Part shown: positions 50,929 to 64,000 of the stretch, piece by piece
Layout of the letters: each line of letters begins with the position of its first letter
Position numbering within the stretch: the stretch's first letter is position 1
Source: Geothrix fuzhouensis
GTDB taxonomy: Bacteria; Acidobacteriota; Holophagae; Holophagales; Holophagaceae
Direction of reading: 5' to 3'
Assembly (NCBI RefSeq): GCF_024609325.1
Contig: NZ_JANHMQ010000001.1
Location: forward strand, 310,001-374,000
DNA length: 64,000 nt
Made by a program: the position numbers and the translations under genes
Notes under the pieces: generated by a model
The model's input: the letters and a program-made list of their open reading frames with translations, nothing else
Databases searched by the model: none
Told to the model about the DNA's origin: nothing

Positions 50929-51624
50929 TTAATCCTCCATCCTGAGTCGGTATCCCACCCCAGGCTCCGTCTGCAGGTACTGGGGCCGGGAGGGGTCCTC
51001 CTCCAGTTTGTGACGCAGCTGGGCCATGTAGACACGGAGGTAGAGGGGCTGGGCGCCCGCCACGCCGCCCCAGACCTCTTTCAGGAGTTGCCGGTGGGTG
51101 ACGACCTTCCCGGCATGGCGGATCAGGGTGGTGAAGAGCCGATATTCAAGTGGGGTGAGGTGGACCTCTTGGCCCGCGACCAGGACCTGGCGCTTGGCCA
51201 GATCCACCCGCCACCGATCCAGGACGAACAGGGGATTCTCAACAGCTCCGGGCTCCGCATGGCGCAGGGCAACCCGGATGCGGGCCAGTAATTCACTGGT
51301 GCCGAAGGGTTTAGTCAAGTAGTCGTCGGCTCCGACATCCAGGGCACCAACCTTGTCGGTTTCCTGTCCGCGGGCGGAGATCACGATGACCGGGATTTGG
51401 CTCCATGCCCGGAGCCGCTTCATGAGGTCCAGGCCATCCATGTCCGGCAGTCCCAGGTCGAGCAGGATGACATCGGGCCTGTACTGGACCGCAAGAGCCA
51501 ACCCCTCCTCTCCCGTGGGAGCTTCCAGGTAGCGGTAGCCACCACCTTCCAGGGCCACCCGCAGGAAGCGGCGCATTTGCGGCTCGTCCTCCACCAGAAG
51601 CACCTGAGGCGCCGGGCTGGTCAT
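50929..51624 (-). CDS. kdpE: KDP operon response regulator KdpE
   Basis: A 231-aa OmpR/PhoB-class regulator. The receiver domain (about 7-120) has the acidic pair EDE, the phospho-acceptor Asp56 (ILLDLGLPD) and a TKPF lysine. The winged-helix domain (about 135-230) includes LTPLEYRLFTTLIRHAGKVV and RVYMAQLRHKLEEDP. It overlaps kdpD by four bases. Its expected targets are the paired sites at 60324-60340 and 60394-60410. Confidence 0.95.
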   Translation of the reverse strand: MTSPAPQVLLVEDEPQMRRFLRVALEGGGYRYLEAPTGEEGLALAVQYRPDVILLDLGLPDMDGLDLMKRLRAWSQIPVIVISARGQETDKVGALDVGADDYLTKPFGTSELLARIRVALRHAEPGAVENPLFVLDRWRVDLAKRQVLVAGQEVHLTPLEYRLFTTLIRHAGKVVTHRQLLKEVWGGVAGAQPLYLRVYMAQLRHKLEEDPSRPQYLQTEPGVGYRLRMED

Positions 51625-54305
51625 GGTGTCTCCTTGGGGATGGCTGGAGGTGTTCCCAAGGGGAGGCTGATGAGGAATTGGGCCCCGCCCTGAGGATGGT
51701 TCACCGCCTGGATCTGGCCGCCATGGGCGGTCACGATGCCCTTGCAGATGGCCAGCCCGAGGCCGGCGCCGGGCCGGCTGGTCCCCGCTTCACCACGGAC
51801 CAGTTTCTCGAAGATGCGCGTTTCCTCTCCGGGCGCGATCCCCGGCCCCTGATCGGCGACCGAGAGCGTGAGGGATTTTCCCGCGGCCCAGGCTTTGATG
51901 TCCACCGGGGATCCGGGCGGCGAGTACTTCAATGCGTTATCGATGAGGTTCACCACGACCTGCTCCATGAGCACGGCGTCCATGGCGATCATCGGCAGGT
52001 CTTCGGGAAGGTGGGTCCTGACACGTGTGGTCTCGGAGCCCAGCTCCCGTCGGTTCAGGGCTGCGCCCACCACCTCCTCCATGGGAATCCATTCCGTATG
52101 CAATTCCAAGGATCCGGCTTCGAGCCGCGTGATATCCAGCAGATTGCTCACCAGGCGGTGCAGACGCTGGGCCTCGTCCTGGGCCGAGGTCAGGAGGTCG
52201 CGCCGAGTCACATCTGAGATGTCGGGGGTCTCCAGGACCGTACTCACTGCCCCGGTGATGACACCCAGCGGCGTCCGCAGGTCATGCGATACGGAGCTGA
52301 GCAGGGCGTTCCGCAAACGCTCCTCCTCGGCATGCCGGCGATCGGCCACACTCTGCTCGGCCAATAGCGAGCGCTCCAGGGCCAGGGCCGTCTGGTTGGC
52401 AAAGGCTTCCAACAGCTGGCGCTGGTCCGGCTCCACCCATTGGGGCGCGCCATCCGGGAGCACGCCCAGCACGCCGAGGGTGCCTTTCGAGCCTTTGAGC
52501 GGCAGATAGGTGGCGCGGGCTCCCGGGAGGGTGAGCGTCCCCAACCCGGCGGATTCCTCATGCTCGAAGACCCACTGGGCCACGCCTCGCTCCTGGTCGT
52601 TCAGCGGAAAGGCCAGGGGGTGGGCCGGCGTTTCCAGGCGACCCGAGGCGTCCGGGAGCAGCATCACCGCATGGCTCTGGAACTGAGTCGTGACGTTCTG
52701 GATCGCTGAGGTCGCCAGGTCCGTTGTTCCAGCACTGCGGGACAGTTCCTGCCCCAGGCGGAAGAGGGCCTGCGTCCGCTGTTCCCGGGCCCGGGCCAGG
52801 CGTGCCTGGGCCCGGATCCGCTCGGTGAGGTTGCCGATGACCAACCCCACCAAGAGCATCACGGAGAAGGTGCCGACGTGGCGGAAGTCGGATACCACAA
52901 AGGTGAAATAGGGAGGCACGAAGATGAAATCGAAGGCGGCCACGCTCAGAATCGAAGCCAACAGCGAAGGACCCCGGCCGAACCGGGTGGCGACCACCAG
53001 GATCCCCAGCAGATAGATCATCACGATGTCCGCCAGCTCCGTGCGGCGGAAGATCAGGCTCGCAATGGCCGTCGCGAACACCACTGCGATGACGCTGAGC
53101 AGGTAGTTCCGCAGCGGGCTCGTGATGCGGGAGCGGAGGCCCGGTGAACCGGCCTGTTCCGCCGTCTCTCCCGTGATGACATAGATGTCGATGTTCCCGC
53201 TGTGGCGGATGAGGTCATCCACCGGCGACCCGGCGAAGACATCCATCCATCGTGGGCGGGAGGGCTTCCCCACCACGATCTTGGTGATGTTGTGGTCCTG
53301 GGCGAAGGCCAGGATGTCCTCATCGGTCCTTCCGCCGCCCTCGATGACCACGGTCTCCCCGCCCAGCTTCTCGGCCAGCCGGAGGTTGGCCTCGACGCGG
53401 CTCCGCTCCGCCTCGCTGAATTTCAGGTGGCGGTGGGACTCCACGTAGAGGGCAACCCACGGCGCACCGAGGGACCCTGCCATTCGGCGCGTAGCGCGAA
53501 TGAGCCGCTCCGAAAGGCCATCCGGCCCCACACAGACCAGGAGCCGGTCGCCGGCGGCCCAGGTCTTCCGAATGCCCTCCGACTCCATGTATCGCCGCAT
53601 CTGGGCATCGACGTTCTCCGCCGTGTGGCGCAGCGCCAGTTCCCGGAGCGCGAGGAGGTTGCCCTTGCGGAAGAAGTGTTCGCGGGCGTGGCGCGCCTGG
53701 TCTGGAAGATAGACCTTGCCCTCCTTGAGCCGAACCAGCAGGTCCTCCGGTGACAGGTCCACCAGCTCGACTTCGTCCGCCCGCTCCATGACCGTGTCCG
53801 GAACGTTCTCCCGCACCGTGACACCGGTGATCTGGGCGATGACGTCCTTGAGGCTTTCCAGGTGCTGGACGTTCATCGTGGTGTAAACGTCGATGCCCGC
53901 GTCCAGCAACTCCATGACGTCCTGCCAGCGCTTGGCGTGCCGGGAGCCCATCACGTTGGTGTGGGCCAGTTCGTCCATGAGAATCAGCGCTGGCCGGCGG
54001 GCCAGGGCAGCGTCCAGGTCGAACTCGGGAAGGAACTGACCGGCGTAGGCCAGTTCCTTTCGGGGCAGGATCTCCAGCCCCTCTGTCAGGGCGGCCGTCT
54101 CACTCCGGCCATGGGTCTCGACGACCCCGACGACCAGGTCGGCTCCCTCATCTCTCCGCTCCCGGGCCTCGGACAGCATGGCGTAGGTCTTACCGACACC
54201 GGGGGCGGCGCCGAAAAAGACCTTGAGCTTCGCACGATTTTCCCGGGTCTCCTGCTCCTGCACTTGGCGCAGCAGGGCATCAGGGTCCGGGCGTTCGAGT
54301 GGCAT
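51621..54305 (-). CDS. kdpD: KDP osmosensitive potassium sensor histidine kinase KdpD
   Basis: An 894-aa inner-membrane kinase that senses potassium limitation and controls KdpE. The N-terminal KdpD domain has Walker A GAAPGVGKT (about 32-40) and LILMDELAHTN; a universal-stress-protein-like domain follows (about 250-375). Four membrane segments lie around residues 400-495, then a GAF-like region (about 525-645). His674 in SVSHDLRTPLG is the phosphorylation site, and the ATPase domain has DNALKYSPPGSP, DQGPGI and GLGLAICKGI. Length equals E. coli KdpD. The porin gene lies upstream on the same strand. Confidence 0.97.
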   Translation of the reverse strand: MPLERPDPDALLRQVQEQETRENRAKLKVFFGAAPGVGKTYAMLSEARERRDEGADLVVGVVETHGRSETAALTEGLEILPRKELAYAGQFLPEFDLDAALARRPALILMDELAHTNVMGSRHAKRWQDVMELLDAGIDVYTTMNVQHLESLKDVIAQITGVTVRENVPDTVMERADEVELVDLSPEDLLVRLKEGKVYLPDQARHAREHFFRKGNLLALRELALRHTAENVDAQMRRYMESEGIRKTWAAGDRLLVCVGPDGLSERLIRATRRMAGSLGAPWVALYVESHRHLKFSEAERSRVEANLRLAEKLGGETVVIEGGGRTDEDILAFAQDHNITKIVVGKPSRPRWMDVFAGSPVDDLIRHSGNIDIYVITGETAEQAGSPGLRSRITSPLRNYLLSVIAVVFATAIASLIFRRTELADIVMIYLLGILVVATRFGRGPSLLASILSVAAFDFIFVPPYFTFVVSDFRHVGTFSVMLLVGLVIGNLTERIRAQARLARAREQRTQALFRLGQELSRSAGTTDLATSAIQNVTTQFQSHAVMLLPDASGRLETPAHPLAFPLNDQERGVAQWVFEHEESAGLGTLTLPGARATYLPLKGSKGTLGVLGVLPDGAPQWVEPDQRQLLEAFANQTALALERSLLAEQSVADRRHAEEERLRNALLSSVSHDLRTPLGVITGAVSTVLETPDISDVTRRDLLTSAQDEAQRLHRLVSNLLDITRLEAGSLELHTEWIPMEEVVGAALNRRELGSETTRVRTHLPEDLPMIAMDAVLMEQVVVNLIDNALKYSPPGSPVDIKAWAAGKSLTLSVADQGPGIAPGEETRIFEKLVRGEAGTSRPGAGLGLAICKGIVTAHGGQIQAVNHPQGGAQFLISLPLGTPPAIPKETP

Positions 54306-54364: not shown

Positions 54365-55288
54365 TCAGAATGCCTTGGCGATGGTGAAGGTCACGGTGCT
54401 CTTCCCTAGGTTGCGCCCCATGACGTTCTCGTAGACGGTGACGTCGTTGTCTGCGGCGCGGGACTTGGCGTCCGTCTTCGTGGCGGCCAGGGTGAGGACG
54501 TAGCCCTTGATTTCATTCGCGATGCCCAGCTTGTAGTCCGAATAACTAAACAGCGCGTTGTCTCCGGTTAGGTAGCTCCCGTTGAAGAAGTAACCTGGGT
54601 TCGCCTTGGCGGAAAAGTTGGTCCGCCCCCCATGAGCCAGCACTGTCCACCCGCTTCCGCCCAGGGGGATCGCCAGGTTGAGGTCGACATAGCTCGTCCC
54701 GCCGGAGTTGTTGACGCCGAACGTATTCGCGCTGATGACCCGCGAGTACTTCAGGCTGGCCCAGGCGTAGCTCAAGCCCAGGTAGGCCTCGGTGGTGGCA
54801 GGGTTCCGGTAGGCGCCGAGGTTGTCGTAGGTGCCCGGGTAGAGGTAGCGGTAGAGCCCTACATCTAGGGTGCAGTCCTTGGCGAAGCCCCACTTGTAGC
54901 CGCCGAACAGGTCCAGTTCCACCCCGGCGGAGTTGGCCTTGCCCGGCCGGTAAAGGGGCGCGCCCACTGCCGCTGGGGATCCAAGGCCGGTGGGTGCGCT
55001 GGCCACCCCCGCGTTCTGATCGGTGAACCAGGAGATGGTGCTCAGGCTGGTGCTGAAGTAGAAGCCGGAAGGATGCACCAGGTCCAGTTCCGCCTGGACC
55101 GTGGGCTTTCCGTCCGTCTGGGTGAGGCCGCGGAAGACGTACTGGGAGCCGAAAGTGGTGGAACCGGTCAAGGCGAAGCCCAGCAGGGTAGGAGGTGCGG
55201 GCGGCGGGGGCGCGGGCGTCGCCGGGGTCTGGGCCATCAGGTGGACGGCCAGGGCCGCGCCCAGAGGAAGGGCAAGGGGAAAGCGCAC
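54365..55288 (-). CDS. TorF-like putative porin embedded in the kdp operon
   Basis: A 307-aa outer-membrane protein. A signal peptide (LALPLGAALAVHLMAQT) and a Pro/Ala/Thr-rich stretch precede a beta-barrel region with alternating hydrophobic strands and aromatic girdles; it ends in Phe (FTIAKAF), as expected for BAM-dependent insertion. The segment TFGSQYVFRGLTQTDGKPTVQ resembles the N-terminus of the TorF/Gcw_chp porin family. The start is GTG at 55288 with CGGAG upstream. Its place between kdpC and kdpD suggests a role in supplying potassium to the periplasm, which is an inference. Confidence 0.82.
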   Translation of the reverse strand: MRFPLALPLGAALAVHLMAQTPATPAPPPPAPPTLLGFALTGSTTFGSQYVFRGLTQTDGKPTVQAELDLVHPSGFYFSTSLSTISWFTDQNAGVASAPTGLGSPAAVGAPLYRPGKANSAGVELDLFGGYKWGFAKDCTLDVGLYRYLYPGTYDNLGAYRNPATTEAYLGLSYAWASLKYSRVISANTFGVNNSGGTSYVDLNLAIPLGGSGWTVLAHGGRTNFSAKANPGYFFNGSYLTGDNALFSYSDYKLGIANEIKGYVLTLAATKTDAKSRAADNDVTVYENVMGRNLGKSTVTFTIAKAF

Positions 55289-55323: not shown

Positions 55324-55917
55324 CTACTTCGAGCCGAGTCCGTCGAGGGCCAGGTTCAGCTTGAGCACGTTCACCCGGGCTTCGCCCAGCACGCCGAACT
55401 GGGGGGGCTCGATATGGGCCGAAACCAGGTCCCGCACCTTGGCCTCGTCCAGGCCCCTGGCCTTGGCCACCCGGCGCACCTGGTAGGCCGCCGAGGCAGG
55501 GCTGATGTGGGGATCCAGGCCGCTGCCGGAGGCCGTGACCAGGTCCACGGGCACTGGGTCCCGGGTTTCGGGGTCGGCGGCCTGCAGGGCCGCGATCCGC
55601 TCCGTCACGGCTTTGGCGAGATCCGGGTTGCTGGGGGCCAGGTTGGAGCCGCCGCTGTTGGCGCCGTTGTAGGGCAGCGGCTTGTTGTTGGCATCGACCG
55701 TGGCAGAGGGACGGCTCCAGAAATCCCGAGGCGAGGTGAAGGACTGGGCGATCCATTCGGAGCCGATCACCTGGCCGCCCTTGCGGATGAGGCTGCCCCC
55801 GGCCTGGCGCGGGAAGATCGCCTTGCCCAGGCCCGTGACGAGCAGGGGATAGGCGACGCCTGTGAGGACGCTGATCGCGATGAAGGAGACAATGGCAGGG
55901 CGTAGTTGCAGGTTCAT
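55324..55917 (-). CDS. kdpC: Potassium-transporting ATPase subunit KdpC
   Basis: A 197-aa subunit with one N-terminal membrane helix and a periplasmic domain. Its signatures are GVAYPLLVTGLGKAIFP, SEWIAQSFTSPRDFWSRPSA, YNGANSGGSNLAPSNPDL and ASGSGLDPHISPASAAYQV. It stabilises the KdpFABC complex and helps ATP binding. It lies eight bases after kdpB and 35 bp before the porin gene. Confidence 0.97.
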   Translation of the reverse strand: MNLQLRPAIVSFIAISVLTGVAYPLLVTGLGKAIFPRQAGGSLIRKGGQVIGSEWIAQSFTSPRDFWSRPSATVDANNKPLPYNGANSGGSNLAPSNPDLAKAVTERIAALQAADPETRDPVPVDLVTASGSGLDPHISPASAAYQVRRVAKARGLDEAKVRDLVSAHIEPPQFGVLGEARVNVLKLNLALDGLGSK

Positions 55918-55925
55918 GGTGTCTC

Positions 55926-58049
55926 CTACGCGGCGAGGTGGAGGGCGACGAGCAGCCAGTCGATAGCCTTGATGCCGATGAAGGGCACCACCAGACCGCC
56001 GGCACCGTAGATCAGAAGGTTGCGCTGCAGCAGCTGGGCGGCACCCACGGGCCGGTACTTCACGCCGCGCAGGGCGAGGGGGATGAGCACGACGATGATC
56101 AGCGCGTTGAAGATCACGGCCGAAAGGATGGCGCTTTCGGGGCTGTGCAGTCCCATGACGTTTAGCGCGCCCAGGGCCGGGTAGGTGGCCACGAAAGCCG
56201 CCGGCAGGATGGCGAAGTACTTCGCCACATCGTTGGCGATGCTGAAGGTGGTCAGCGATCCTCGCGTCATGAGCATCTGCTTGCCGATCTCCACGATCTC
56301 GATGAGCTTCGTGGGGTTGGAGTCCAGATCCACCATGTTCCCGGCCTCCTTCGCGGCCTGGGTGCCGCTGTTCATGGCCACGGCCACATCCGCCTGCGCC
56401 AAGGCCGGAGCGTCGTTGGTGCCGTCCCCCGTCATGGCCACGAGGCGCCCGCCGGCCTGGTATTCGCGGATGAGCTTCAGCTTCGCCTCGGGCGTGGCCT
56501 GGGCGAGAAAGTCGTCCACCCCGGCCTCCGCGGCGATGGCGGCGGCGGTGAGGGGATTGTCGCCGGTGATCATCACCGTCTTGATGCCCATGCCCCGAAG
56601 CTCCGCGAAGCGCTCCTTGATGCCGCCCTTCACGATGTCCTTGAGTTGGATCACACCCAGGGCGTGAGAGCCTTCGGCCACCACGAGCGGGGTGCCGCCT
56701 GCCATGGAGATCTGGTCGACGGTGCGGCGCAGGTCGTCCGGGAATGTACCGCCGTGGGACTGGACGTAGGCTTCGATGGCCGAGGTGGCGCCCTTGCGGA
56801 TCTGGCGCGTGCCCAGGTTCACGCCGCTCATGCGGGTCTGGGCGGTGAAGGGTACGAAATGGGCATCCAGGGCGTGGATATCCCGCTCGCGAAGGCCGTG
56901 CTGTTCTTTGGCCAGCACCACGATGCTGCGACCCTCGGGGGTTTCGTCCGCCAGGGAGGAGAGCTGGGCCGCGTCCGCCAACTGCTGGAGGTCCACTCCC
57001 TCAGCGGGCAGGAAGGCCACGGCCTGCCGGTTGCCCAGGGTGATGGTGCCGGTCTTGTCCAACAGCAGCACATCCACATCGCCGGCAGCTTCCACCGCCC
57101 GGCCCGAGGTGGCGATGACATTGGCCTGGATCATGCGATCCATGCCTGCGATGCCGATGGCGCTGAGCAGGCCGCCGATGGTGGTGGGGATGAGACAGAC
57201 CAGCAGCGACACGAGCACGGTGAGGCTCACAGGGCTGCCCTGTCCAGCGGCCTTGGTGGAGAAGATGGAGTAGGGCAGCAGGGTGGCCGTGGCCAGCAGG
57301 AAGATGATGGTGAGGCCCGCCAGGAGGATATCCAGGGCGATCTCGTTGGGCGTCTTCTGACGCTTGGCGCCTTCCACCATGGCGATCATGCGGTCCAGGA
57401 AGCTTTCCCCAGGGTTGGACGAGACGCGGATCACCAGCCAGTCGGACAGCACCAGGGTGCCGCCGGTGACGGCGGAACGGTCACCGCCACTTTCGCGGAT
57501 GACCGGGGCGCTTTCGCCGGTGATGGCGCTTTCGTTCACGGAGGCTACGCCTTCGACCACTTCGCCGTCACCGGGGATGGTTTCGCCGGCCTCGACGAGC
57601 ACCAGATCGTTGATGCGGAGTTCCGGCGCGTCGACCACCTTGTGAGGGCCCAGGCGATCAGTGCCGACGAGGCGCTTGGCCTTCACGTCGCGCTTGGACT
57701 TGCGTAGCGAATCCGCCTGGGCCTTGCCCCGGCCCTCGGCCATGGCTTCCGCGAAATTGGCGAAGAGCAGCGTGAACCAGAGCCAGAGCGAGATGGCGAG
57801 GATGAAGCCGGGCCGGCCCACGCCGTGGCCGGACAGGGCCTGCAGCCAGAGCCCCGTGGTGAAGGCGCTACAGATCCACACGGTGAACATCACGGGGTTC
57901 CGCAGCTGGTGCAGTGGATTCAACTTCCGGAAGGAGTCGGCCAGCGCGCGGCGCACGATGCCCGGTTCGAAGAGGGGGCGGGCTTGACGAGAGATCCCAA
58001 CTCGCGCATGCGCGAGTTGGGGGATGTCATGCCGGGAGTGGGAAACCAT
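55926..58049 (-). CDS. kdpB: Potassium-transporting P-type ATPase subunit KdpB
   Basis: A 707-aa P-type ATPase catalytic subunit. The phosphorylated aspartate is Asp331 in [16 protein letters not shown] (actuator domain), [20 protein letters not shown] and seven membrane segments are in place. The conserved chain begins near residue 20 ([11 protein letters not shown]). The first 20 residues are an extra N-terminus, largely encoded by the 26-bp palindrome at 57996-58021. No in-frame start lies between the palindrome and the conserved region, so the extension is probably translated. CGAGGCC gives a modest ribosome site. Confidence 0.97.
57996..58021. repeat. 26-bp perfect palindrome within kdpB
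   Basis: CCCAACTCGCGCA is followed immediately by its exact complement with no spacer. In the kdpB reading frame it encodes residues 10-18 (PQLAHARVG) of the nonconserved N-terminal extension. It can form a cruciform in DNA or a strong hairpin in the mRNA about 28-53 nt after the start codon. Confidence 0.88.
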
Positions 58050-58223: not shown

Positions 58224-58233
58224 GGATCACCTC
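58224..58233 (-). promoter_or_regulatory. Strong ribosome binding site for the 48-aa protein
   Basis: On the minus strand GAGGTGATCC is an exact 10-base complement to the usual 16S rRNA 3' end, and GAGG is six bases before the ATG at 58223. It overlaps the kdpA stop codon, so translation could be coupled. Confidence 0.75.
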
Positions 58234-59941
58234 AGCGCAGGGCCAGGTGCTCGGCGATGGGGCCGAGGGCCAGGGCGGGAATGAAGGTGAGGGCCCCCAC
58301 CAGGAGCACGACGCCGACGAGCACGCCGACGAAGAGTGGTGTATGTGTGGGCAGGGTGCCGAGGCCCTCGGGGGTGTGCTTCTTCTTCACGAGGGAGCCG
58401 GAGAGGGCCAGCACGGGCCAGATGACGCCGAAGCGGCCCAGGAGCATGGCCAAGGCCAGACCGTAGTTGTAGAATGGTGTGTTGACGCTGAGGCCACCGA
58501 AGGCGCTGCCGTTATTGTTGGAGGCGCTGCTCCAGGCGTAGAGGATCTGGCTGAAGCCGTGGGGTCCCGGGTTGCTCACGGAGGCGGCGGCGTTGGCCAC
58601 CAGCACGGAGATGGCTGCCCCGATCAGCACGGCGGCGCACGGCAGGAGGATGGCGATGGAGGCCATCTTCATCTCGAAGGCTTCCACCTTCTTGCCGAGG
58701 TATTCCGGCGTGCGGCCCACCATGAGGCCGCCGATGAAGACGCCAACTAAGGCGAACATCAGCATGCCGTAGAGGCCCGAGCCCACGCCGCCGAAGACCA
58801 CTTCGCCCAGTTGCATGAGCCACATGGGCACGAGTCCGCCCAAGGGGGTGAAGGAGTCATGCATCGCGTTCACGGAACCGTTGGAAGCCGCCGTGGTGGC
58901 CGTGGCCCAAAGGGCCGACCCGCCGGGGCCGAAGCGTAGCTCTTTGCCCTCCATGTTCCCGCCAGGCTGCTCCTGGCCTGCCACGCGGCTGGCCACCTGG
59001 GTCACGCCCAGGGGGGACAAGGCGGGGTTGCCCTTCACTTCGGCGTGCGTGCAGACGGTGAGGGCCCCCACGAAAATCAGGGTCATGGCGGCCAGCAGGG
59101 CCCAGCCCTGGCGGCGGTCCTTCACCATGTGCCCGAAGGTCACGCAGAGGGCTGCAGGGATGAGGAGGATGCTCAGGATCTGTACGAAATTTGAGAGTGG
59201 CGAGCTGTTCTCGAAGGGGTGGGCGGCGTTGGCGCCGAAGAACCCGCCGCCGTTGGTACCAAGCATCTTGATGGCGACCTGGGAGGCTGCGGGTCCCATG
59301 GCGAGTACTTGTCCGCCCGCCGTGTGGATGTAGGCGGACAGGTTCTGGATGACGCCCTGGGAGACGAGGAAGAGGGCGAAGACGAAGGACATGGGCAGGA
59401 GGATGTAGAGGGTGCTGCGCACCAGGTCCACCCAGGCATTCCCGAGGCCCGTGGCGTTGCGGCGTGTGATACCCCGGATCAGCGCCACCAGCACCGCGAT
59501 GCCCGTGGCAGCCGAGAGGAAGTTCTGCACCGTCAGGCCCAGCATCTGGGTGAGGTAACTCAACGTCGTTTCGCCGCTGTAGGCCTGCCAGTTGGTGTTG
59601 GTGATGAAGCTTACGGCTGTGTTGATGGAGAGGCCTGTCGCCACATTGGCCTGGTGTTCGGGATTGAGGGGCAGGGCGGCCTGGGTCTTCATGAGGAGGA
59701 ACACCGCCGCCAGGCCGAGGAGCTTGATGAGGGTGATGGACCAGGCGTAGGCCTTCCACCCCATGTCCTCATCCTCGCGGATGCCCATGAGGCGGTAGAG
59801 GCCTTGCTCGAGGGACCCGAGGACTGGATGCAGGAAAGTGCGTCCGCCCTCCAGAACCTTGGCCATGTAGGTCCCCAAGGGGAAGGCCAGGCTCAGGAGC
59901 AGGGCCAGGTACAGCAGGTTCTGGGACCAGGCGTGGCTCAT
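58232..59941 (-). CDS. kdpA: Potassium-transporting ATPase subunit KdpA
   Basis: A 569-aa channel-like subunit that binds and moves K+. About ten membrane segments are present. The selectivity-filter-like repeats include NTNWQAYSGE, LGTNGGGFFGANAAHPFEN, MHDSFTPLGGLVPM and SASNNNGSAFGGLS (written in order of occurrence). Length is typical. The start at 59941 overlaps the kdpF stop (ATGA). Its stop overlaps the ribosome site of the 48-aa gene. Confidence 0.97.
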   Translation of the reverse strand: MSHAWSQNLLYLALLLSLAFPLGTYMAKVLEGGRTFLHPVLGSLEQGLYRLMGIREDEDMGWKAYAWSITLIKLLGLAAVFLLMKTQAALPLNPEHQANVATGLSINTAVSFITNTNWQAYSGETTLSYLTQMLGLTVQNFLSAATGIAVLVALIRGITRRNATGLGNAWVDLVRSTLYILLPMSFVFALFLVSQGVIQNLSAYIHTAGGQVLAMGPAASQVAIKMLGTNGGGFFGANAAHPFENSSPLSNFVQILSILLIPAALCVTFGHMVKDRRQGWALLAAMTLIFVGALTVCTHAEVKGNPALSPLGVTQVASRVAGQEQPGGNMEGKELRFGPGGSALWATATTAASNGSVNAMHDSFTPLGGLVPMWLMQLGEVVFGGVGSGLYGMLMFALVGVFIGGLMVGRTPEYLGKKVEAFEMKMASIAILLPCAAVLIGAAISVLVANAAASVSNPGPHGFSQILYAWSSASNNNGSAFGGLSVNTPFYNYGLALAMLLGRFGVIWPVLALSGSLVKKKHTPEGLGTLPTHTPLFVGVLVGVVLLVGALTFIPALALGPIAEHLALR

Positions 59942-60030
59942 TGGAACTTCTCTGGCAGCAGAAGGGCGAAGGTGAGGTAGCCCAGGAGGCCAAGGGCCAG
60001 CATGGAAGCGATGAGAAGGGTGGCGTTCAT
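59938..60030 (-). CDS. kdpF: Potassium-transporting ATPase subunit KdpF
   Basis: A 30-aa single-helix membrane peptide (start MNATLLIASMLALG, end LLLPEKFQ). KdpF is a lipid-like stabilising subunit of the KdpFABC complex and usually has about 29 residues ending in a P-E-(K/R)-F motif after the helix, as here. It lies directly upstream of kdpA with a four-base overlap, its standard position. A weak AAGGA stands about 12 bases before the ATG. Confidence 0.93.
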   Translation of the reverse strand: MNATLLIASMLALGLLGYLTFALLLPEKFQ

Positions 60031-60041
60031 TGGAGGAGTCC

Positions 60042-60251
60042 TTAGTCAGATATGAACTGGGCGATCAGCCAGAAGAAGAGGGGAAGGAACATCAGGACCA
60101 ACATCCACAAGGCATTCCTCCGCCCGGTTTCTCCCTCGGTTCGCAGGTCACGCGCCGCACGGACGCCCAGCCAGGCGGCCAACGTGGCCAAGGGGAAATA
60201 CCAGGGCATCACCAGGCGCACGACGACTCCTACGGTGGACCCAGCCTTCAC
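60042..60251 (-). CDS. Small two-span membrane protein leading the kdp operon
   Basis: A 69-aa candidate with two hydrophobic segments: about 6-28 (VGVVVRLVMPWYFPLATLAAWLG) and about 46-66 (ALWMLVLMFLPLFFWLIAQF, 20 residues). A positively charged loop (RAARDLRTEGETGRR) lies between them. The start is GTG at 60251; the frame is open further upstream to 60336 but has no ATG, and no good ribosome site is visible, which lowers confidence. It ends 11 bp before kdpF and lies downstream of the putative KdpE site. The family is not recognised. Confidence 0.6.
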   Translation of the reverse strand: MKAGSTVGVVVRLVMPWYFPLATLAAWLGVRAARDLRTEGETGRRNALWMLVLMFLPLFFWLIAQFISD

Positions 60252-60323
60252 GGCCAGGGAGGAATAGGCCCGGCTTCCCGCTTTCTGAAGGCCAGCCGGT
60301 CCAACAGCATGGTTGCGACCAGC

Positions 60324-60340
60324 GTTAAGGCGCTGTTAGG
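60324..60340 (-). promoter_or_regulatory. Putative KdpE site facing kdp
   Basis: Read on the minus strand, CCTAAC-N5-CTTAAC gives two (C)TAAC half sites with an 11-bp period, the usual spacing for OmpR/PhoB-class regulators. A third half site (CTTAAC) is at 60356-60361. It is 73 bp upstream of the 69-aa membrane gene that leads the kdp operon. Confidence 0.55.
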
Positions 60341-60371
60341 AGTCAGGGCGAAACCGTTAAGTTGTCGTAGA

Positions 60372-60387
60372 GGCCAGAGGTCTGGCC
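60372..60387. repeat. Inverted repeat in kdp-kimA intergenic region
   Basis: GGCCAGA (60372-60378) and TCTGGCC (60381-60387) form a perfect 7-bp dyad with a GG spacer, between the two putative KdpE sites. It could be a site for a second regulator. Confidence 0.5.
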
Positions 60388-60393
60388 TGAAGT

Positions 60394-60410
60394 CCTAACG
60401 CCTTCTTAAC
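60394..60410 (+). promoter_or_regulatory. Putative KdpE site facing kimA
   Basis: CCTAAC-N5-CTTAAC on the plus strand, the same design and orientation relative to its gene as the kdp-facing copy at 60324-60340, with 11-bp spacing of TAAC half sites. It is 114 bp upstream of the KimA-like start codon. Confidence 0.55.
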
Positions 60411-60524
60411 ACCCTTCCTGGCCACTCTAGGGATTGGCTGGCACGGGCATTTGTGGACGGGCTGGTCGTACCGTCACTCTGTCTGGCCCAACCCAGATGG
60501 CCCAACTGCCCCAGGAACCAAGGC

Positions 60525-62414
60525 ATGCCCAATTACAGAACCCTTCTCCTGGGGCGGCGGCTCGCCAGCGAAGAAAGCCACGAGACCAAGATCAGCAACC
60601 CCATCGCCCTGGCGGTGTTCAGTTCGGACGCGCTGTCCTCTGTGGCCTACGCCACCCAGGAGATCATGGCGCCCCTCACGGCAGCCGTGGCCATCTACGG
60701 CGCGGGCGTGCTGGGCTGGTCCTGGTGGGTGGCCCTGGGCATCGTGGGGCTGCTGCTGATCCTGAACGTCAGCTACCGCCAGACCATCCACGCCTACCCC
60801 AGTGGTGGCGGGGCCTACCTGGTGGCCAAGGACAACCTGGGCGAGGTCGCGGCCCAAACGGCGGGCGCGTCTCTCCTCATCGACTACATCCTCACGGTAG
60901 CCGTATCCGTGTCGGCGGGTGTGTCGGCCATCGTTTCGGCCTTCCCGGGGCTAGCGGCCCATCGCGTCTTCCTCGCGGAGGGCCTCATCGCCTTCATCGC
61001 GCTCATGAATTTGCGGGGCGTGAAGGAAAGCGGGACGGTCTTCTCGGTGCCCACCTACGGCTTTGTGGTCTGCATCATGGGCCTCCTGCTCAAGGGGCTC
61101 TGGAATGTGGCCACGGGCCAAGCCGTGGTCGTCCACACCGCTGCGGTCCACATGGAAGGCACCACCAAGCTGGCCGCTCTCTGGCTGCTGGCGCGGGCCT
61201 ACAGCGCCGGCTGCACGGCCTTGACGGGTGTGGAGGCCATCAGCAATGGCGTCACGGCCTTCAAGGATCCCGTGTCGCGCAACGCGTCCAAGACAATGAC
61301 CTCGATGGTGACCATCCTGGGTTTGATGTTCCTCGGCATCACGTACCTGGCCAATCACTACGGCCTCACCTACCATCCGGATTCCGCAGAAACCCTGCTG
61401 TCCCAGCTCACCCGCCTCATCCTGGACGGAGCGGGCCACGGCTTTGCGAAGGTTATCTACTTGGTCACTACCGGTTTCACCATGGCCATCCTGGTCCTGG
61501 CGGCGAACACGGCCTACGCGGATTTTCCCCGCCTGGCGGCGCTTCATGCGCGGGACGGATTCCTGCCCCGCCAGTTCACCAGCCAGGGAGACCGGTTGGT
61601 CTTTTCCAACGGGATCTTCATCCTGTCCCTGGCGGCGGGATTCCTGGTTCTGCTCTTCGGCGCGAAGGAAGACCACCTGTTGCCCTTGTACGCGGTGGGT
61701 GTGTTTCTTGGTTTCACCATCAGCCAGACCGGTATGGTGCGCCGCTGGTTCCGTCTCAAAGGGAAGGGCTGGCAGCTGAAGGCGCTGATCAATGGCCTGG
61801 GGGCGGTGACAACGCTCATCGTCATGCTGGTGATCGCCGTGACACGCTTCGCCCATGGGGCCTGGATCGTGATTGTGCTTGTGCCGCTGCTGGTGATGAC
61901 TTTCTTCAACATTCACCGGCACTACATCCGCATCAAGTCCATCCTCGCCGCGAGCCGGGTGGACTTCATCGGACCCCGCCGGAACCGGGTGGTTGTGCTG
62001 GTGTCCGGCATTCACGCCGGCGTAGTGCAATCCTTGAACTATGCGAAGGTCATCGCGGAGCACGGCGAAGTCGAGGCGCTGACCGTCGACTTCACAGATG
62101 ATCACGGCCGGGACAGTGCCACGCTGGAGAAACTGCGATCCGACTGGCCGAGGTACAGCGAAGGGATTCCCCTCCGGGCCCTCCGAAGCCCGTACCGGAA
62201 GGTGGTCGAGCCCATCGTGGACGAGCTGGAGCGCATGCGGCAGGCAGAGCCGGAATACACCATCACGGTCATCCTTCCCGAGTTCGTCACCGGGCACTGG
62301 TGGGCAAACCTGCTCCACAACCAGACGGCCATGAGGATCAAGGGCACGTTGCTGCTCATGCCCAAGATCATCGTGATCTCCATCCCCTACCACGTGGAGC
62401 CGCTGGTGGAGTGA
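60525..62414 (+). CDS. KimA-like APC-family potassium transporter
   Basis: A 629-aa inner-membrane transporter. The N-terminus YRTLLLGRRLASEESHETKI and the first helix region SNPIALAVFSSDALSSVAYA match the KimA (YdaO) group of high-affinity K+/H+ symporters in the APC superfamily. Twelve membrane segments end near residue 475, and a 150-residue cytosolic domain follows (VVVLVSGIHAGVVQSLNYAK), as in KimA. The ATG at 60525 is preferred over a GTG at 60453 because the conserved chain begins there. It is divergent from kdp and shares its regulatory region. An amino-acid permease role is less likely given that context. Confidence 0.87.
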   Translation: MPNYRTLLLGRRLASEESHETKISNPIALAVFSSDALSSVAYATQEIMAPLTAAVAIYGAGVLGWSWWVALGIVGLLLILNVSYRQTIHAYPSGGGAYLVAKDNLGEVAAQTAGASLLIDYILTVAVSVSAGVSAIVSAFPGLAAHRVFLAEGLIAFIALMNLRGVKESGTVFSVPTYGFVVCIMGLLLKGLWNVATGQAVVVHTAAVHMEGTTKLAALWLLARAYSAGCTALTGVEAISNGVTAFKDPVSRNASKTMTSMVTILGLMFLGITYLANHYGLTYHPDSAETLLSQLTRLILDGAGHGFAKVIYLVTTGFTMAILVLAANTAYADFPRLAALHARDGFLPRQFTSQGDRLVFSNGIFILSLAAGFLVLLFGAKEDHLLPLYAVGVFLGFTISQTGMVRRWFRLKGKGWQLKALINGLGAVTTLIVMLVIAVTRFAHGAWIVIVLVPLLVMTFFNIHRHYIRIKSILAASRVDFIGPRRNRVVVLVSGIHAGVVQSLNYAKVIAEHGEVEALTVDFTDDHGRDSATLEKLRSDWPRYSEGIPLRALRSPYRKVVEPIVDELERMRQAEPEYTITVILPEFVTGHWWANLLHNQTAMRIKGTLLLMPKIIVISIPYHVEPLVE

Positions 62415-64000
62415 CTACCTGATCTGGAAGGTTCGTGCCGGAACCTCTGAGGAAGCCAGCCTTGCCGTGTGGGCCTCCAGCAGGTCGCTCCGCGTGAGGA
62501 TGCCGACCAGCCTGGACTCCGCGTCCAGGACGGGAAGGCGTCCCACGGCCTCGCGGACCATATGGTCGGCCGCCTGGCGGAGCGAGTTGCCCCCGAAGGC
62601 CACGGCCAGGTCCCGGTGGATCAGGTCCCGGATCGGCGCCTCCGGAGGATGAGAGGCCTCCAGTAGGTCCCGCCGCGTGAGCACGCCGATCACGGAGCCA
62701 TCTCCATCGACCACGGGAAACCCGTGGTGGGAGGCACCGTCGGCTCCCGCTTCGATCCAGCGTCGTACCGAGCCGAGCGGCTGGTCTGCCTCCAGGGTCA
62801 CCACGGGGTTCGAGGCCGCATCCTTGACCAGGACCTGATCCAGGAAGTCCGCGGAGTACTCCCCGGGGACCCGGATGCCGCGCCGGGCGAGCTTCTCCGT
62901 CATGATGCTGTTCCGCATCATCAGGGCCGAAATCAAGTAGGCGGCGGAGCATCCGCCCAGCAGGGGCAGCAGGCCCAGGGGCTGCAGGGTCGTCTCGAAG
63001 GCGAACACGGCTGAGGCGAGCATGGCCCGGGAAGCGCCCGCGAAGATGGCGGCCATGCCGACCAGCGCGCAAATTCGTGGGTCCACGCCTGCCTCCGGGA
63101 ATGCCGCGGCGATGAGGCCGCCCAGGAGGGCGCCCAGGGCGCCACCGAGGGTGAAGAGGGGAGCCAACGTTCCGCCGGACGTGCCGCTGCCGAGGGCGAT
63201 GGACCAGGAGAGGAACTTGGCCAGGCACAGGACCAGAAGGCCGGTCCCGAGGAGGTTCGCCGAAAGGATGGCCTGGATGTTGTCGTAGCCCACGCCCATG
63301 GTGTGGGGGACGAAGTAGCCGATGCCGCCGACGCCAAGGCCACCGAGGGCGGGCCACCACATCCAGTGGATGGGTAGATGCTCGAATCCGTCCTCGATCC
63401 AGTAGATGGCCCGGGTCACGTAGACCGAGGCCAGACCCACCAGGGCGCCGAGGGCGATGTAGATGGCCAGGGCGGCCCCGCCGGGGGTGCCCAGAGTGGG
63501 CATGGGGAAGACCGGCCGGATGCCGACCAGCGAGAAACGGACGCCGGTGGCGGCGACGCTGGCCAGGGCCACGGGGATGATGGAGCGCGGCCGCATCTCG
63601 AAGAGCAGCAGCTCCACGGCGAGGAGCACCGCCGAGACCGGGGACCCGAAGGTGGCCGCCATGCCGGCCGCTGCGCCCGCCGCCAGCAGCGTCTTGCGCT
63701 CCAGCGCCGTGGTCGAGAGGACCTGCCCGAGGAGGGAGCCGAGGGCGCCGCCGGTGGCGATGATGGGGCCCTCAGCGCCGAAAGGGCCACCGGTGCCGAT
63801 GGCGATGGCGGCGGAGAGGGGCTTGAGGAAGGTGATGCGGGCCGGGATGCGGCTCTCGTTGAGCAGGACCTGTTCTATCGCCTCGGGGATGCCGTGCCCC
63901 CGGATCGCCCGGGATCCGTACCGGGCCATCAGGCCGACGAGGATGCCTCCCGCGGCCGGGATGAAGATGGCCGGCCAGCCGAGGTGGTGTCCGGCCGGCG
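62415..64000 (-). CDS. ClC-family chloride channel/transporter with CBS domains, N-terminus beyond the edge
   Basis: The visible 528 residues lack the start. ClC motifs are GHGIPEAIEQ (the usual GSGIP), GPFGAEGPIIATGG (GREGP, gating glutamate kept) and GSGTSGGTLAPLF (GxFxP). Membrane helices run to about residue 350 of the visible part, then two CBS domains (DFPVVDGDGSVIGVLTR-like and RLPVLDAESRLVGILTRSDL) end the protein. It probably exchanges Cl- for H+ or conducts Cl-. It is convergent with the KimA-like gene with no gap, and may serve charge balance during potassium uptake. Confidence 0.92.
   Translation of the reverse strand, partial: PAGHHLGWPAIFIPAAGGILVGLMARYGSRAIRGHGIPEAIEQVLLNESRIPARITFLKPLSAAIAIGTGGPFGAEGPIIATGGALGSLLGQVLSTTALERKTLLAAGAAAGMAATFGSPVSAVLLAVELLLFEMRPRSIIPVALASVAATGVRFSLVGIRPVFPMPTLGTPGGAALAIYIALGALVGLASVYVTRAIYWIEDGFEHLPIHWMWWPALGGLGVGGIGYFVPHTMGVGYDNIQAILSANLLGTGLLVLCLAKFLSWSIALGSGTSGGTLAPLFTLGGALGALLGGLIAAAFPEAGVDPRICALVGMAAIFAGASRAMLASAVFAFETTLQPLGLLPLLGGCSAAYLISALMMRNSIMTEKLARRGIRVPGEYSADFLDQVLVKDAASNPVVTLEADQPLGSVRRWIEAGADGASHHGFPVVDGDGSVIGVLTRRDLLEASHPPEAPIRDLIHRDLAVAFGGNSLRQAADHMVREAVGRLPVLDAESRLVGILTRSDLLEAHTARLASSEVPARTFQIR

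Follow-up and report, generated by a model that had tools for sequence, protein, structure and literature searches.

The locus studied here raises the question whether a single response regulator, KdpE, controls two potassium importers, the Kdp pump and a KimA-like transporter, whose genes diverge from one intergenic region in Geothrix fuzhouensis. The window, i.e., the whole stretch of DNA that was analysed, comprises 64,000 nucleotides. In the initial annotation, two mirror-image KdpE-type operators, one for each importer, had been proposed between the two genes.

Genes on both sides of the intergenic region

The kdp cluster is located on the reverse strand. The first frame after the kdp-side box encodes a small protein of 69 aa (60042–60251), which has homologues at the equivalent place in L158, L159, L160, L166, L169, and L178 and matched DUF4190 below the cut-off. 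It is followed by kdpF (59938–60030, 30 aa; Pfam Potass_KdpF, 27.9 bits, cut-off 21.2), kdpA (58232–59941; TIGR00680, 768 bits, cut-off 387.7), kdpB (55926–58049 with a provisional start codon; TIGR01497, 1062.7 bits, cut-off 527.9, scored on 55926–57959), kdpC (55324–55917; Pfam KdpC, 250.8 bits, cut-off 24.1) and a gene for a TorF-family putative porin (54365–55288; TIGR02001, 114 bits, cut-off 47). The sensor kinase gene kdpD (51621–54305) encodes KdpD, Usp, DUF4118, GAF, HisKA, and HATPase domains according to Pfam and has NF007793, below its cut-off, as the best match. The response regulator gene kdpE (50929–51624) closes the set, so that kdpE is encoded together with kdpD and kdpFABC; its presence in this locus had been noted in the initial annotation. 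Among curated families the KdpE model NF007820 matched the kdpE product best (280.2 bits, E = 1e-83), yet the NCBIfam cut-off of 325 was missed; context and homology, rather than this score threshold, support classing the putative regulator as KdpE-like. Moreover, its residues R197, R204, and T219 align with R193, R200, and T215 of E. coli KdpE, which are described as important in DNA binding in the available part of PMC3264566.

On the forward strand, the gene at 60525–62414 encodes a protein of 629 aa that aligns over residues 5–624 with KimA (Protein Data Bank entry 6s3k, E = 6e-138), its sole PDB match at E ≤ 0.001. The protein matched Pfam AA_permease_2 and no NCBIfam family. This full-length homology upholds the earlier assignment of the protein as a KimA relative, for which potassium import is predicted. 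A gene for a ClC-type chloride channel with CBS domains (62415–63929) converges on kimA and also adjoins kimA in L160 and L166.

In Bacillus, KimA expression is under control of the c-di-AMP-sensing ydaO riboswitch, as stated in the accessible sections of PMC11018627 and PMC6488665. Such control of the present kimA was considered and rejected, as the window and 20 kimA-related loci yielded no Rfam match at gathering score.

Two exact boxes in the window

The kdp-side box, CCTAACAGCGCCTTAAC, lies at 60324–60340 on the reverse strand and points at kdp, and the kimA-side box, CCTAACGCCTTCTTAAC, lies at 60394–60410 on the forward strand and points at the KimA-like gene. Both match CCTAAC-N5-CTTAAC exactly, which confirms the paired motif of the initial annotation, one copy per strand, each facing its own potassium gene. 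The kdp-side box thereby shows the form expected of a KdpE operator, namely 6-bp direct repeats with a 5-bp spacer upstream of kdp.

The genome of this strain (3,318,792 bases) contains no exact copy of the motif besides these two boxes, and none at all of the reversed control pattern. With up to two mismatches allowed, the window contains three matches, two of them exact, versus 0.71 expected, and 4 of 100 shuffles reached three. At the same tolerance the motif gave 28 matches in the genome versus 126 for the reversed control and was thus without enrichment, which indicates that the signal lies in the exact box and that loose matches carry none. The one copy with a single mismatch in this genome (contig C5, L003) adjoins genes without an evident potassium link.

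Conservation of the boxes in Geothrix

Comparison with related genomes revealed that the paired motif is kept across the genus rather than lost in close relatives, with a fixed orientation and a near-fixed spacing to a -10-like element. Exact boxes were found in 30 of the 77 genomes of the family. Geothrix, represented by 47 genomes, accounts for 28 of these 30. The 47 genomes contain 44 exact boxes, all within kdp or kimA promoter regions: 23 before kimA, 20 before kdp (counting the box at the remnant kdp of G028) and one on the minus strand at the kdp promoter of G007, where it faces away from kdp. In the genus, exact copies are thus confined to kdp and kdp-type kimA. The reversed control pattern gave 15 matches across the 77 family genomes, 5 of them in the 47 Geothrix genomes. 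In the 31 genus genomes with KdpA (G028, with a kdpA fragment, was left out of this count), the kdp promoter carries an exact box in 19, a box with one mismatch in 6 and with two mismatches in 5; none was found in G022.

Outside Geothrix, the kdp box of genus g5 (G053) has one mismatch, and a search ahead of kdpA in eight loci from g3, g4, g7, and g9 yielded no direct repeat of [CT][CT]TAA[CT]. G002 and G003, two relatives with small genomes, also contain exact copies, which were dismissed as chance matches: these copies lie inside an open stretch of about 68 residues, and neither genome gave a match to KdpA or, at E ≤ 1e-50, to KdpE.

The box in front of kimA

Geothrix genomes contain additional kimA genes elsewhere, often in tandem. 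From 132 match rows, 66 kimA genes (30 returned loci and 36 fetched) were checked up to 600 bp upstream, a survey of intact genes and, in tandem pairs, of first copies, with few genera beyond Geothrix. In each of the 22 surveyed kimA genes located near kdpD, kdpE, or kdpBC, the coding strand carries an exact box 98–125 bp before the start codon, whereas this applies to only one of 44 unlinked kimA genes, "unlinked" meaning more than 100 kb away or on another contig, a definition under which fragmented drafts could hide linkage. The single exception belongs to G046 (locus L168, on a contig with no kdp within 8 kb). The remaining 43 have no box at 0 or 1 mismatch upstream; in two of them a match with two mismatches occurs on the opposite strand, 412 or 510 bp upstream. 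In G008, the kimA at a tandem locus (L138), the product of which is 87% identical, is without the box. The strain of the window itself has a tandem pair of further kimA paralogues on contig C3 (L130), the first of which has no box upstream.

In a kimA tree built by a quick method, a single branch (SH-aLRT 99) separates the 23 box-bearing genes from the others. The simplest history is thus one acquisition of the box followed by its retention, which would reflect purifying selection, not repeated gain. As the box-bearing kimA has a single origin, linkage and box amount to one evolutionary event and not to 22. For the same reason, an independent-pairs test of kdp linkage against the box had one usable pair and so no power.

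A single origin would also fit a reading in which the shared motif is a remnant of a divergent promoter, kimA having landed beside kdp without any real control by KdpE. G007 adds a point for it: two exact boxes on opposite strands, 6 bp apart, lie before kdp (L154, 2583–2622) in this genome, which has no kdp-linked kimA, so that boxes may outlive their function. The minus-strand box of G007 may be the fossil of a lost kimA promoter. What argues against a mere remnant is the constancy of the half sites. An alignment of 11 genomes, picked for a kdp-facing (in G029, kdpD-facing) box and a kimA box in one shared intergenic region, shows no variation in 23 of 24 half-site columns, as compared with 35 of the remaining 237 (Fisher p = 3e-16, the columns not being strictly independent), although the mean pairwise identity of the aligned region is 63%. 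Both boxes are exact in all nine genomes in which kimA was found divergent from kdpA. Moreover, the kimA box is kept in G033, G018, G008, G030, G036, and G046, in which kilobases or a contig boundary separate kimA from the kdp promoter. We consider the remnant reading the least probable of the alternatives. The mirror-image layout described in the initial annotation holds in the window, but not as a general feature: several relatives have their kdp and kimA boxes separated by kilobases or placed on different contigs, and the layout is incidental.

Promoter architecture

The kdp box is followed after 12 nt by the -10-like element CATGCT (60306–60311, reverse strand) and the kimA box, likewise after 12 nt, by CACTCT (60423–60428, forward strand). 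The pattern CA[TC]NCT occurs at an offset of 11–12 in 18 of 25 kdp promoters and at an offset of 12 in 19 of 23 box-bearing kimA promoters. The 25 kdp promoters correspond to 26 rows minus L044, which has a better box further upstream, and include one row (L055) from genus g5. Across relatives the distance from box to start codon is variable and the offset from box to -10-like element nearly constant. With the -10-like element 12 nt downstream, the box overlaps the -35 position. Promoters activated by OmpR/PhoB-class regulators elsewhere likewise have the operator overlapping the -35 region, and the layout looks as if an OmpR-class activator replaced the -35 element. A sigma-70 consensus promoter was not found in 60200–60560, with 0.1 expected, which is weakly consistent with activator dependence.

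A degenerate second kdp box with three mismatches lies at 60356–60372 on the reverse strand, 32 bp upstream of the first. It accounts for the third half site that had been reported at 60356–60361: GTTAAG is present there, as the 3' half of this degraded box and not as a free-standing element. A second box exactly 32 bp upstream, i.e., three helical turns, with one to three mismatches was found in 13 of the 25 kdp promoters, the window included. Eleven of these 13 have two mismatches or fewer; in 12 of the 25 the second box is absent at that position.

The fixed orientation and the near-fixed distance to CATNCT would also be expected if the boxes were core promoter elements of an alternative sigma factor instead of activator sites. 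The half sites are, however, 11 bp apart, and their distances to the -10-like element (12 nt for the 3' half, 23 nt for the 5' half) both differ from the -35 spacings usually seen. In addition, the second box in 13 of the 25 kdp promoters would not be needed by a sigma factor. These features make such an explanation very unlikely.

KdpE as the probable activator of kdp and kimA

With a probability of roughly 85%, KdpE activates both kdp and kimA, the boxes being operators for phosphorylated KdpE. Each box consists of two 6-bp half sites repeated directly at an interval of 11 bp. It would accommodate two KdpE subunits head to tail and, with a CATNCT-like -10 element following after about 12 nt, would stand in for the -35 element. 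In this position KdpE would recruit RNA polymerase to kdpFABC and, independently, to kimA; at kdpFABC the helper box 32 bp further upstream would often assist. When potassium is scarce, KdpD would phosphorylate KdpE and both importers, the ATP-driven pump and the KimA-type importer, would be made. The joint control suggested in the initial annotation is thus supported by the conserved boxes, by their orientation and spacing and by their absence from 43 of 44 unlinked kimA genes, and from these features we infer KdpE as the binder, activation as the effect, and low potassium as the signal.

A different OmpR/PhoB-class regulator, encoded elsewhere, might bind both boxes, with KdpE as a bystander. 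The genus genomes gave dozens of first-look KdpE-related candidates (38–135), KdpE itself being a putative binder of the boxes. The distribution of kdpE speaks against such a regulator: of the 36 genus genomes that have a kdpE orthologue (best E-value below 1e-100), 28 contain an exact box, versus none of the 11 others, the latter figure being partly trivial because most of these 11 are also without kdpA. In the other 8 of the 36, the boxes have one or two mismatches at best or, in G022, were not found; the fragmented assembly G025, in which no kdpE orthologue was found, has KdpA and a kdp box with one mismatch. Moreover, the same box occurs at kdp, for which KdpE is the regulator to be expected, and the box-bearing kimA adjoins kdpD even in assemblies without kdpABC. 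A bystander role of KdpE is therefore unlikely.

Assemblies without an intact Kdp pump

No KdpA match and no KdpB above cut-off were obtained for G016, G029, G039, G040, and G041, and in G028 the kdp pump is reduced to a kdpA-kdpC remnant. All six assemblies without intact kdpABC retain kdpD, kdpE, and kimA with an exact kimA box. On the kimA tree, absence of the pump requires 3 changes or more, a count to be read with the caution that drafts could hide pump genes, since G036 shows KdpA and yet no KdpB above cut-off; the assembly of G040 is 98% complete in 70 contigs. In G028 (L169, 6137–6469), short kdpC and kdpA remnants lie between kdpD and two boxes as an apparent deletion scar. G048 (L170) has kdpABC that is 63–85% identical to that of the window, versus 84–89% for kdpD/kdpE, and the rest of its kimA clade is pump-less; re-acquisition of the pump is possible in this genome.

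E. coli KdpD phosphorylates KdpB via its Walker A/B domain, for which D109 and E110 are both essential as judged by alanine changes (PMC11018627, available part). The equivalent Walker B residues in the KdpD of the window are D111 and E112, and the serine-kinase function is predicted. The KdpD Walker B motif was found in 19 of 20 loci scanned, as DE in 16 and as DD in the pump-less G039, G040, and G041 (L174, L173, and L172). In these three, the residue equivalent to E110 is D and the nearby ETHGR has changed to DTHGQ; the pump-less G016, G028, and G029 still have DE. The pump-phosphorylating arm of KdpD may thus have been altered in one pump-less lineage, the E-to-D change being suggestive only because it concerns one lineage and is a mild substitution.

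KdpDE-like genes beside kimA in Chloroflexota

A KdpE-like regulator gene was found within the flank of kimA in 8 of 16 Chloroflexota loci. Four of these regulators were tested, and all had KdpE as the best NCBIfam model, below the cut-off. Seven neighbouring kinases were tested as well; DUF4118, HisKA, and HATPase domains are present and the KdpD and Usp domains absent, six of the seven being informative on the missing domains because the kinase at L221 begins at a contig edge. KdpA was found in 2 of the 11 Chloroflexota genomes concerned, for which completeness is not given; among the 8 with linkage, 2 have it. In a class-wide draw, a KdpE-like gene occurred within about 1.5 kb of kimA in 5 of 30 loci, with the query's own locus counted. 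The Geothrix box was not found at 0–1 mismatch in the 16 Chloroflexota loci. The association of KdpDE-like genes with kimA in Chloroflexota is recurrent but patchy. The version in Anaerolineae would consist of a KdpD-like kinase without the pump-phosphorylating domain and a KdpE-like regulator beside some kimA genes, mostly where KdpA was not found.

We lean slightly towards a wider reading in which KdpDE is a portable potassium-starvation switch and not an accessory of Kdp. Geothrix would have gained kimA as a target and then lost the pump several times, with KdpDE serving KimA; in one pump-less lineage KdpD would have lost the catalytic glutamate of the pump-inhibiting serine kinase, and Anaerolineae (Chloroflexota) would have been rewired similarly and separately.

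Relation to described KdpE and KimA regulation

In the literature surveyed, as far as its text was available, KdpDE appears mainly as a regulator of one pump and KimA as an importer controlled by c-di-AMP. The E. coli KdpE operator at kdpFABC is TTTATA-N5-TTTACA, 6-bp direct repeats with a 5-bp spacer (PMC3264566, available part). Geothrix shares with it the 6-5-6 plan, the regulator beside the pump operon, and the conserved R193, R200, and T215, and differs in the half sites CCTAAC/CTTAAC, in the second target kimA, and in the frequent second box 32 bp upstream. According to the accessible part of PMC5401905, S. aureus KdpE binds promoters beyond kdp, namely those of capsule and virulence genes and of kdpDE. 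Geothrix resembles it in having targets other than kdpFABC, but a second potassium importer is not among the targets named there. The same part of that source describes for M. smegmatis KdpE one target, a 22-bp A-rich site upstream of kdpF that is conserved within the genus, as in Geothrix, with letters unlike those of the Geothrix box. This site is reported to have no noticeable similarity to earlier ones, whereas that of C. acetobutylicum resembles the E. coli site. Since KdpE sites on this evidence vary in their letters between species, the Geothrix letters alone are no objection to KdpE. In comparison with Bacillus (PMC11018627 and PMC6488665, sections available), potassium-related control of KimA is common to both, in Geothrix apparently by a DNA operator and a two-component system.

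The initial annotation had regarded a regulon of Kdp and KimA under KdpE as undescribed. In line with this, no report of KdpE control of kimA was found in the literature searched, which lay mostly outside subscription journals and included the available parts of PMC8214093, PMC11018627, PMC10117811, PMC9945522, PMC6488665, PMC11302148, PMC5401905, and PMC3264566. If true, control of two targets by KdpE through a readily identifiable box would define a potassium-starvation regulon in Acidobacteriota and explain why KdpDE is retained without Kdp in some genomes. The natural variants, pump-less or with an altered KdpD Walker B motif, could then separate the transcriptional from the pump-inhibiting function of KdpD. 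Beyond the initial annotation, the present analysis adds the confinement of exact boxes to two targets in the genus, the activator-type look of the promoters, and the apparent ability of KdpDE to outlive Kdp.

Porin genes associated with kdp

An outer-membrane-type gene lies between the box and kdp in G010, G019, G020, and G035. Its product matched a BBP2 porin in both genomes tested, G010 and G035, in which the BBP2-type porin genes (L155, 1470–2882, and L237, 2344–3693, respectively) are the first genes after the KdpE-type box. Together with the TorF-family gene of the window, these suggest, as a possibility, that kdp clusters may include a potassium-starvation porin.
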